Below are positions 21,638 through 23,911 of a stretch of 57,076 bases of DNA, piece by piece. The stretch covers positions 1-57,076 of the forward strand of contig JAPKYX010000238.1 of assembly GCA_026394075.1 (NCBI GenBank), in the 5' to 3' direction. The DNA comes from Acidobacteriota bacterium. Its GTDB lineage: Bacteria > Acidobacteriota > Terriglobia > Bryobacterales > Bryobacteraceae. Under the pieces are notes generated by a model, which made no database searches, was not told where the DNA came from, and saw nothing but the letters and a program-made list of their open reading frames with translations. How positions within the stretch are numbered: the stretch's first letter is position 1; each line of letters begins with the position of its first letter. The translations under genes were made by a program, and so were the position numbers.

Positions 21638-22024
21638 ATGCAACAGATGAGTTCCATCGGAACATCAATGGCGGCGTTTCCGTTTGTTGACGCCGTACTG
21701 CGCAGCTTGAGCCAGCCCGCTGTGGCTGAGACGCTCGAAGCGGCCACGGCCAAGAAGGTCGCCCCCAAGAAGGCAGTGCCGGCCAAGAAGACTCCAGCTA
21801 AGGCTCCGGCCAAGAAGGCCCCCGCTAAGGCTCCGGCAAAGGCTCCGGCCAAGGCCCCCGCTAAGGCTCCTGCCAAAGCTCCGGCCAAGGCGCCCGCTAA
21901 GGCTCCGGCCAAAGCCCCCGCTAAGGCCCCGGCCAAGAAGGCTCCGGCTAAGGCTCCGGCCAAGAAGGCTGCTGCTCCGGTCAAGGCCGTCAAGAAGGCT
22001 GCTCCGGCCAAGAAGTCGGCCTAG
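21638..22024 (+). CDS. Histone H1-like Lys/Ala/Pro-repeat protein
   Basis: 128 residues. The first 40 are ordinary (MQQMSSIGTSMAAFPFVDAV then LRSLSQPAVAETLEAATAKK); the remaining 88 are a run of PAKA/PAKK units ending KKAAPAKKSA. This composition is that of bacterial histone H1-like or AlgP-like tails, which bind DNA without sequence specificity. GGGAGA lies upstream of the ATG. It is preceded by 228 bases without a gene and followed by a strong terminator, so it is probably a single-gene, well-expressed transcript. DNA binding is inferred from composition. Confidence 0.8.
   Translation: MQQMSSIGTSMAAFPFVDAVLRSLSQPAVAETLEAATAKKVAPKKAVPAKKTPAKAPAKKAPAKAPAKAPAKAPAKAPAKAPAKAPAKAPAKAPAKAPAKKAPAKAPAKKAAAPVKAVKKAAPAKKSA
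21790..21970 (+). repeat. 12-base tandem repeat encoding PAKA units
   Basis: The unit is close to AAGGCTCCGGCC, repeated about a dozen times with third-base variation (gct/gcc, ccg/ccc). It lies within the histone-like gene and sets the length of the basic tail; such repeats often vary in copy number between strains. Confidence 0.85.
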
Positions 22025-22073: not shown

Positions 22074-22115
22074 ATCGGGGCCAAGCTCAACCCAGAGTGG
22101 CCCCGATTTTCTTTT
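22074..22115 (+). terminator. Rho-independent terminator of the histone-like gene
   Basis: Perfect 10-bp stem ATCGGGGCCA (22074-22083) with TGGCCCCGAT (22098-22107), 14-base loop, followed by TTTCTTTT. It stands 50 bases after the stop codon on the same strand. Confidence 0.93.
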
Positions 22116-22174
22116 GTGGGCACCGTTGTTCAGGCCGCCCACATCGTCCTGATTCGTCCCGTATACTCGTTCTC

Positions 22175-22564
22175 ATGAAGAGCCTGATTCATCTGTTCGC
22201 TTTTGCCCTGGGCACCTTCGCGCAAGACGACGTGAAGAAGATCTCGGCCGAAGACATCAAGGACCTACTTGGGCCCAACGTGATCTTCCTCGATGTCCGC
22301 ACTCCGCAAGAGATCCGCGAGTTCGGCACACTGAAGGGCTACATCAACATCCCCATTGATGAACTGCCCAAGCGCATGGGAGAACTCCCCAAGGACAAGC
22401 GCATCATCACCGCTTGAAACGCCGGAGGAAGAGCGGTCCGTGCGGCCGCCATGCTGAAGGCCAAAGGCTATGACGTGATCGGCGCTTGTGGCATCAAGGG
22501 CGCGGAGACCAAGGGTGTCGAGTTGATCAAGCCCACTGAGGAAGAGAAAGAGAAGAAGCCCTAG
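22175..22564 (+). CDS. Rhodanese-like sulfurtransferase with UGA at the catalytic cysteine (candidate selenoprotein)
   Basis: Read through one UGA, the gene encodes 129 residues. An N-terminal hydrophobic segment (MKSLIHLFAFALGTFAQ) suggests export. The rhodanese fold is clear: ISAEDIKDLLGP, VIFLDVRTPQEIREFGTLKG, YINIPIDELPKRM, then DKRIITA-UGA-NAGGRAVRAA, LKAKGYDVIGACGIKG and a normal TAG. In rhodanese homology domains the residue at the UGA (position 81) is the persulfide-forming Cys, in the usual pattern (I/V)xYCxxGxRA. TGA differs from the Cys codons TGT/TGC by one base. A stem-loop follows at 22433-22449. The alternatives are a nonsense mutation or a sequencing error. No other selenium gene is in the window. 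The ATG at 22175 fits the signal peptide. Confidence 0.7.
22433..22449 (+). promoter_or_regulatory. Candidate bacterial SECIS stem-loop
   Basis: GCGGTC (22433-22438) can pair with GGCCGC (22444-22449), including one G-U pair, around the loop CGTGC. The loop begins 21 bases after the UGA at 22415-22417, within the spacing seen for bacterial SECIS elements, and has a G in its first two bases as the loose consensus asks. The stem also lies in GC-rich coding sequence, where chance hairpins are common. Confidence 0.4.
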
Positions 22565-22660: not shown

Positions 22661-23911
22661 ATGAGCCCTCGTTTCTGCCTCTCCGCCGTTCTCTGCCTGC
22701 TCCCTGTAGCGGCCGCAACGCTGCCCAAGACCGGCCCCGAGAAGGTAGGCCTTTCCGCCGAGCGCATGAAGCGTGTCGATCGCCTCATGCAGCGCTACAT
22801 CGACAAAGGCGAGATCGCGGGCGCAGTGACACTGGTGGCGCGCAAAGGGCAGATCGCCCACCTGAATGCCCAAGGCGTGATGGACCTCGACTCCAAGCGC
22901 CCCATGACCACGGACGCCATCTTCCGCCTGGCGTCCATGACCAAGCCCATCACCAGCCTGGCCGTGATGATGCTGCATGAGGAAGGGCACTTCCTGCTGA
23001 AGGACCCGATCTCGAAGTTCCTGCCCGAATTCAAGAACCCGCAGGTGGCCGTGGCCAACGCACCGAATGAACGCGCGGGCGGCGGCTTTCGCACAGTACC
23101 CGCGGAGCGTGAGATCACCATCCGTGACCTGCTGACCCACACCTCCGGCTTGGCCAGCGGCACGGCGGGACCGACTATGGCGCTGGTGCAGAAGCTGAAT
23201 GCCGCACGCAAGCCCGAAGACCTTCTGGCCAGCTACACGGTGAAGCTGGCTGCCCTGCCCCTGAACTTCCAGCCCGGCACGCATTGGGAGTACGGCCCCG
23301 CCACCGACGTACTGGGACGCTTGGTGGAAGTGGTCTCCGGCCAAACTCTCGACCAGTTCTTCCGCCAGCGCATCCTCGATCCGCTGGGCATGACGGACAC
23401 GCACTTCTATCTGCCCGAAGACCGCCTGCCGCGCCTCACTACTGCTTACGAGAAGGCCGAAGGCCAGTTGCGCAAGCTCACCGCACTGGGCCCGGCCAGC
23501 CGCACCGCGAAGTTCTATGCCGGTGGTGGTGGCTTGGCCGGTACCGCCGAGGACTACCTCCGCTTCTGCCAGATGATGCTGAACGGCGGACAACTGGACG
23601 GCAAGCGCCTAGTCAGCCCCAAGACCATCGAGCTGATGCGCGCCAACCACATCGGGGATCTGCCCATGTGGCAGGACACGCTCAGCGGCTACCACTTCGG
23701 CCTCGGCCTGCGCGTGCGCGCAAGCAATGGCCAAGCGGCCGTGCTCGGCTCAGAAGGCAGCTACGGCTGGGGCGGAGCCTACGGCACCTACTTCTGGATC
23801 GACCCCAAGGAGCAGATGATCGGCATCATGATGATCCAACTAATGCCCTACGCCCACATGAACATCCGCCCGGAGTTCCAGAACGTCGCCACGCAGGCGA
23901 TTGTCGAGTAG
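22661..23911 (+). CDS. Secreted class C beta-lactamase-like serine hydrolase
   Basis: 416 residues with a signal peptide (LCLLPVAAATLPKT). The beta-lactamase/transpeptidase-like fold is shown by the SxxK motif at Ser92-Lys95 in RLASMTKPITS, the tyrosine motif in WEYGPATDVLGRLVE, and a late YGWGGAYGTYFWIDP segment. IRDLLTHTSGLASG is typical of the esterase/D-aminopeptidase branch (family S12). Likely a periplasmic esterase or peptidase rather than a true beta-lactamase. It is 96 bases after the rhodanese and may be a separate transcript. Confidence 0.92.
   Translation: MSPRFCLSAVLCLLPVAAATLPKTGPEKVGLSAERMKRVDRLMQRYIDKGEIAGAVTLVARKGQIAHLNAQGVMDLDSKRPMTTDAIFRLASMTKPITSLAVMMLHEEGHFLLKDPISKFLPEFKNPQVAVANAPNERAGGGFRTVPAEREITIRDLLTHTSGLASGTAGPTMALVQKLNAARKPEDLLASYTVKLAALPLNFQPGTHWEYGPATDVLGRLVEVVSGQTLDQFFRQRILDPLGMTDTHFYLPEDRLPRLTTAYEKAEGQLRKLTALGPASRTAKFYAGGGGLAGTAEDYLRFCQMMLNGGQLDGKRLVSPKTIELMRANHIGDLPMWQDTLSGYHFGLGLRVRASNGQAAVLGSEGSYGWGGAYGTYFWIDPKEQMIGIMMIQLMPYAHMNIRPEFQNVATQAIVE

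Follow-up and report, generated by a model that had tools for sequence, protein, structure and literature searches.

A predicted selenocysteine rhodanese family in Bryobacterales, with UGA at the catalytic position

Introduction

Rhodanese is a textbook cysteine-persulfide enzyme, and a rhodanese gene with a stop codon where the catalytic cysteine is expected raises the question of whether that codon ends the protein, records an error, or is read as an amino acid. Such a gene lies in a 57,076-nucleotide stretch of an acidobacterium of the family Bryobacteraceae (here called the window; GenBank assembly GCA_026394075.1, contig JAPKYX010000238.1, forward strand). The initial annotation, made from the sequence alone, proposed that the UGA may be read as selenocysteine (Sec), which would be a little-described use of selenium in sulfur transfer, and it named a recent mutation or a base-call error as the alternative. 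Automatic annotation readily truncates genes of this type at the UGA.

The accessible part of PMC13188914 lists five predicted rhodanese selenoproteins, forms 1 to 5, with the motifs UxxS, UxxG, CxU, UxxG, and UxxxxU, and that of PMC9312934 contains predicted Sec rhodaneses under earlier names. In the portions available of the remaining sources, PMC1088965 and PMC2398784 give a few marine Sec rhodanese sequences, PMC5029168 counts 25 members for one such family, and PMC1794560 reports for Acidobacteria 4 selenoproteins that fall into 3 families. Three selenoprotein genes are described from one acidobacterium in PMC12013277, where the string "rhodan" is absent from the main text.

Results

An intact rhodanese frame around one UGA codon

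Translation bore out the reading frame of the initial annotation, which ends in TAG and is interrupted by a single in-frame TGA, codon 81 (Table 1). Its placement of this codon at the rhodanese catalytic cysteine also held, as the surrounding loop reads U-N-A-G-G-R, matching CxxGxR. With TGA read as Cys, the Pfam family PF00581 matches across the TGA at 46.7 bits (cut-off, 22.2), and a six-frame search of the genome returned the identical match with "1 TGA" inside. The protein thus belongs to the rhodanese superfamily by score and by a CxxGxR loop with Sec in place of Cys, and its fold model agrees (pLDDT, 87.1), matching rhodanese domains and best those of the NADH-dependent persulfide reductase and CoADR-RHD. 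In the model, Sec81 ends the strand formed by residues 76 to 81 and Cys105 lies near the end of the strand from 100 to 106; from rhodanese topology, we take the ends of these two strands to be adjacent.

Table 1. Features of the putative Sec rhodanese gene, in window positions
Feature	Position	Strand	Details or basis
Sec rhodanese gene (predicted)	22175..22564	+	129 residues with UGA read as Sec; TAG stop; PF00581 match
Export-signal-like hydrophobic N-terminus, MKSLIHLFAFALGTFA	22175..22222	+	by eye
Rhodanese domain, residues 24-100	22244..22474	+	Pfam match, genome coordinates
UGA at catalytic position, read as Sec81	22415..22417	+	translation and aligned relatives
SECIS-type hairpin	22434..22448	+	stem 22434-22438 with 22444-22448; loop CGUGC 22439-22443
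Cys105 codon, +24 from Sec81; possible partner (role inferred)	22487..22489	+	alignment count
TATACT, possible -10 box, 7 bases before ATG	22162..22167	+	by eye

The N-terminus suggests that the rhodanese is probably exported. By a crude hydrophobicity count that had no negative control, a hydrophobic N-terminal stretch is found in 72 of 77 relatives with TGA at the catalytic codon and in 26 of 26 with Cys.

Upstream of the gene lies a Lys/Ala/Pro-rich open reading frame (21638-22024) for which Pfam gave no match, and downstream a Beta-lactamase-family gene (22661-23911; PF00144, 255.9 bits). By eye, a GC-rich inverted repeat and then a T-rich run can be seen between the upstream frame and the rhodanese (22076-22115); a terminator and promoter scan around the gene, covering loops of 3 to 8 only, found none. 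TATACT also precedes the ATG in L035 and L036, the copies from both other genomes of the genus. By eye, in 45 copies, a TATACT or TACACT box about 6 to 9 bases before the ATG recurs in several TGA clades, not in all. Given the position of its TATACT box so near the ATG, the mRNA of the window's gene is possibly leaderless.

When flanking frames of TGA and Cys copies were clustered, no conserved gene partner emerged. Flank families comprised at most 21 loci each, several of them antisense and most tied to sub-clades, and we therefore read no function from gene context. The one match to Rfam, to an sRNA family, scored 22.6 bits, below the gathering score of 40, and was taken as chance. Rhodanese matches were present in 349 plasmid records, all below 60% identity.

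UGA, Cys, and Ser at the aligned codon

Among 257 genomes of the order Bryobacterales searched, 244 contained rhodanese matches. We took every listed copy to an E value of 3.7e-14 and dropped one duplicate locus (L043), leaving 111 copies that are not independent, as some are near-identical and some genomes have two. The aligned codon was TGA in 77, TGC in 25, TGT in 1, TCC in 4, TCG in 3, and TAA in 1; as residues, this is 77 TGA, 26 Cys, and 7 Ser beside the single TAA. The initial annotation had asked which codon homologs carry, and the closest ones (L035 and L036) have TGA, neither TGC nor TGT. With TGA in 77 of 111 copies, including those two, conservation at this codon is judged to be far beyond chance. 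A UGA conserved at a redox residue that is Cys in homologs is the pattern by which bacterial selenoproteins are recognized, and it is the pattern of this set. Two genomes (G117 and G058) hold both a TGA and a Cys copy. With the active-site column masked, a tree of 110 rows calls for no fewer than 10 Sec/Cys changes; it is a quick tree of 132 columns with many open forks, and the direction of change was not read from it.

Two other kinds of codon occur in the set. L136 (G092:C313), a second copy in its genome, carries TAA in place of the catalytic codon, and its similarity fades a few codons on; it looks like a broken or decayed paralogue of L052. The Ser copies L135 and L138 to L143 form a related group (TCC or TCG; motif SNHAARA or close) whose members are perhaps not sulfurtransferases. 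Ser copies were also seen at L249 and L252 in a sample of the phylum.

Selection on the protein was estimated from 23 chosen pairs of TGA copies, some with dS near saturation. After the UGA, dN/dS was 0.05 to 0.41 (23/23 pairs), and before it 0.00 to 0.26, with the lower value after the UGA in only 8 of 23 pairs. These ratios indicate purifying selection on both parts, somewhat less tight on the part after the UGA, in line with the earlier argument that an intact downstream frame speaks against a dead gene.

A hairpin shared by most TGA copies

The hairpin in the window has 5 core pairs and a CGUGC loop and lies 21 nt past the UGA; the 51-nt fold has an energy of -16.6 kcal/mol. It conforms to the bacterial SECIS model whose rules are given in the accessible part of PMC13188914, rules that are permissive in GC-rich DNA. 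Tests on single copies were weak. Folding energy after the UGA showed no excess over synonymous shuffles of the same sequence, and 47% of the window's own synonymous shuffles matched its hairpin. A hairpin score built on the SECIS loop rule and compared with synonymous shuffles averaged 15.2 versus 8.0 in shuffles for CGT-type copies (P ≤ 0.05 in 7 of 65), 19.2 versus 6.7 for other TGA copies (6 of 12), and 5.7 versus 6.3 for Cys copies (1 of 26). RNAalifold gave a weak consensus for alignment A1 (-2.36 kcal/mol). The case for a SECIS element therefore rests on comparison between copies.

That comparison begins with position and loop. A 5-bp stem stands 21 nt after the UGA in 65 of 77 TGA copies, closing a CGUGC loop in 63 and CGUGU in 2. 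Of the 77 TGA copies, 65 have CGT as the loop codon, compared with none of the 26 Cys copies and one of the 7 Ser copies. Within TGA genes, CGT accounts for 45 of 528 Arg codons at other positions and for 65 of 76 at the loop position. Over 45 nt, the 66 distinct TGA rows align without gaps, and 89.4% of their stem cells pair; in the 56 distinct CGT rows, 97.1% of cells form standard pairs. None of 500 shuffles reached the covariation score of these 56 rows, which fell when the stem partner was shifted by 1 to 3 columns, and their closing pair is CG in 28 and GC in 28. Pairs changed on both sides are less telling, since 59 of 500 shuffles reached the count. In the 26 Cys rows, which have in common with the TGA rows the descent and coding constraint that affect all such pairing figures, 50.0% of stem cells pair, no better than in shuffles.

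The 12 TGA copies without the CGUG loop are a clade of nine (L072, L089, L104, L105, L108, L109, L111, L116, and L133), two tandem copies at L077, and L084. All have a hairpin 17 to 19 nt after the UGA with a loop of GGA, GGC, CGGGC, or UGGAC, and as this fits the SECIS rules we regard the GG-loop hairpin as a candidate alternative SECIS. Members of the clade of nine are also without Cys at +24. One of the two L077 copies pairs in the tree with a Cys copy, L088.

Selenocysteine machinery

All of selA, selB, selC, and selD, the genes for which the initial annotation had advised a search, are present in the genome that contains the window (5.77 Mb in 302 contigs, 96.9% complete). Profile searches scored selB at 339.6 bits (cut-off, 242.25), selA at 473.6 (267.9), and selD at 351 (125), and there is a tRNA-Sec with anticodon TCA (UCA). 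The selD gene itself contains one in-frame TGA followed by a 7-bp hairpin with a GGU loop that fits the SECIS rules, so selD is probably a further gene served by the Sec system here.

A further contig of the assembly (L224, G000:C99:22000-27428) carries a second tRNA-Sec(UCA) (C99:24545-24636, 64.3 bits) and beside it a second selA (C99:26518 to the contig end, which cuts it; 356.1 bits). Each of the other two genomes of the genus shows a single tRNA-Sec (73.9 bits), so the contig may be foreign DNA binned with this genome or may hold a second set particular to this species.

Across the order, we counted selB at its family cut-off because a threshold of E ≤ 1e-50 picks up elongation factors besides SelB: of 14 control genomes, 9 matched at that threshold and 2 exceeded the family cut-off. 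By this measure, 65 of the 74 genomes that have a TGA copy carry selB, versus 18 of 24 with Cys copies only. Nine TGA genomes fall below the cut-off; selB is in two pieces in G090 and G237, and five of the remaining seven (G055, G104, G117, G206, and G207) have tRNA-Sec. Neither selB nor tRNA-Sec was found in only two TGA genomes, G053 (79% complete) and G102 (58% complete). Six Cys-only genomes are below the cut-off; G060 and G214 have tRNA-Sec, and in G128, G131, G155, and G239 (91 to 100% complete) neither was found.

Occurrence outside Bryobacterales

In a sample of 396 Acidobacteriota genomes, profile matches at E ≤ 1e-20 came from 40, and the codon was read in 30 loci: TGA in 14 (one being the window itself), Cys in 14, and Ser in 2. 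Of the 13 other TGA copies, 12 come from other classes, and CGT occupies the loop position in 8 of these 13. In named genomes, a scan gave at least 597 matching stretches; the best 80, several of them on the same contigs as the order set, comprised 13 TGA and 67 Cys loci, and 11 of those 13 are titled as Acidobacteriota groups. We conclude from these sets that the predicted Sec rhodanese is widespread in Bryobacterales and present in other classes of Acidobacteriota.

Two record titles point elsewhere. L147 (DYJN01000086.1) is titled Arcobacter, and its protein is identical to that of G142 from the acidobacterial order; the title is probably wrong. L158 (DCQM01000012.1), titled Akkermansiaceae, is a TGA copy with a CGUGC hairpin and would be either a transfer between phyla or a misplaced contig.

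Discussion

The reading that we favor, at a probability of roughly 93%, is that the product of this gene is a small exported rhodanese with Sec placed at the catalytic position by SelB, Sec-tRNA(UCA), and the hairpin just after the UGA. It draws on a UGA kept among relatives, a downstream frame under selection, a hairpin that is both kept and covarying, and the presence of the machinery, and on these four grounds the Sec reading of the initial annotation gains support. Very probably, then, this soil-type bacterium, like dozens of its relatives, makes a small exported sulfur-handling enzyme with Sec in place of the catalytic Cys.

The same letters in one genome could come from an ordinary Cys rhodanese gene with a recent nonsense mutation or a miscalled base, as the initial annotation pointed out, but we now give this next to no weight. 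The same TGA in two other, independent genomes of the genus in practice excludes a base-call error, and neither a recent mutation nor an error would account for TGA at the aligned codon of 77 of 111 copies, for purifying selection downstream of it, or for a CGT hairpin that most TGA copies have and none of the 26 Cys copies share. It is also very improbable that UGA is read as another residue, through a reassigned code or a suppressor tRNA, or that a short product is made on purpose. Where Sec is inserted inefficiently, some truncated product is normally made by termination; nothing specific speaks for these readings beyond that. Against them stand a tRNA-Sec with a UCA anticodon, a conserved frame past the UGA, and the alternatives used at the codon, which are Cys or Ser and not Trp. 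In addition, 20 of the 111 frames, all in relatives of the window's genome, end in TGA, so that UGA also terminates in those genomes.

What the sequence supports is Sec at the catalytic position, and from there we infer the chemistry and the partner. Once SelB, Sec-tRNA(UCA), and the hairpin had inserted Sec at the UGA (22415-22417), the Sec81 selenolate would most likely react in the cell envelope with a persulfide, polysulfide, or thiosulfate, taking up a sulfane sulfur as Sec-S-SH that could then be passed on to a thiol. In members with Cys at +24, that residue may instead attack the intermediate, releasing sulfide and forming a Se-S bond that a thioredoxin-like partner would reduce. By the Cys105 route, the enzyme may be a persulfide reductase rather than a transferase only. 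Among scorable TGA copies, 54 of 76 have Cys at +24, as do 12 of the 26 Cys copies and none of the 7 Ser copies; with 22 of the 76 lacking it, this residue is not essential to the whole family. Rhodaneses can also bind selenium, and with SelD encoded in the genome the protein could serve in perselenide binding and delivery towards SelD rather than in sulfur or persulfide chemistry. We consider this improbable, as the export-signal-like N-terminus would put the protein in the wrong compartment and as none of 14 flank families, several of them antisense, looked sel-like when the first 150 residues of each were inspected by eye.

Known rhodaneses resemble the window's protein in part. PspE, a thiosulfate sulfurtransferase, is likewise a small single rhodanese domain; it is periplasmic and a Cys enzyme. 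Scores for its families were 28.9 bits against 102 (NF007627) and 23.5 against 126.3 (TIGR02981), and we rejected membership. The best solved relatives are the rhodanese domains of CoA-disulfide and NADH-dependent persulfide reductases (4ocg, 3nta, and 3icr; 8.9e-13 by sequence and 2.7e-7 by fold), which are joined to a flavoprotein of roughly 570 residues, whereas the rhodanese described here is a separate protein that has Sec and an export-type N-terminus. NF041203 (rhodanese_LYCAU, "rhodanese-related (seleno)protein"; form 3) is also a small rhodanese with a Sec member, but its Sec lies in the CxU motif given in the accessible part of the source, and ours is at the first loop position; at 34.2 bits, far under the cut-off of 115, membership was rejected. 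The window's protein exceeded the cut-off in none of the 17 NCBIfam families listed. Closer in type are forms 2 and 4 (MBM9537886.1 and MCY3690685.1; PMC13188914), computational predictions that, like our protein, combine PF00581 with Sec in a UxxG motif; the likeness concerns the motif and domain tabulated in the part of that source available.

"Little-described," the term of the initial annotation, stands in one respect: our literature search found no experimentally tested Sec rhodanese in the accessible portions of its sources. It does not stand in another, because the family is large and the predicted kind is already catalogued in the available parts of PMC13188914 and PMC9312934. The family described here is, on that footing, a new and sizeable addition to a catalogued kind.

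A more ambitious combination of these ideas would be a large Acidobacteriota envelope family in which a Sec81-Cys105 selenenylsulfide relay acts as a persulfide or polysulfide reductase, not a sulfurtransferase, and in which one clade swapped CGUGC for a GG-loop SECIS while keeping its UGA. As a whole we hold this only tentatively and think it rather unlikely; if true, SECIS turnover could be traced at a fixed codon. More generally, the copies collected here form a natural series for the change or loss of SECIS elements at one fixed codon, and with 77 predicted Sec copies beside 26 Cys copies in a single order, they offer natural pairs for asking what Sec gains an enzyme in sulfane-sulfur chemistry.
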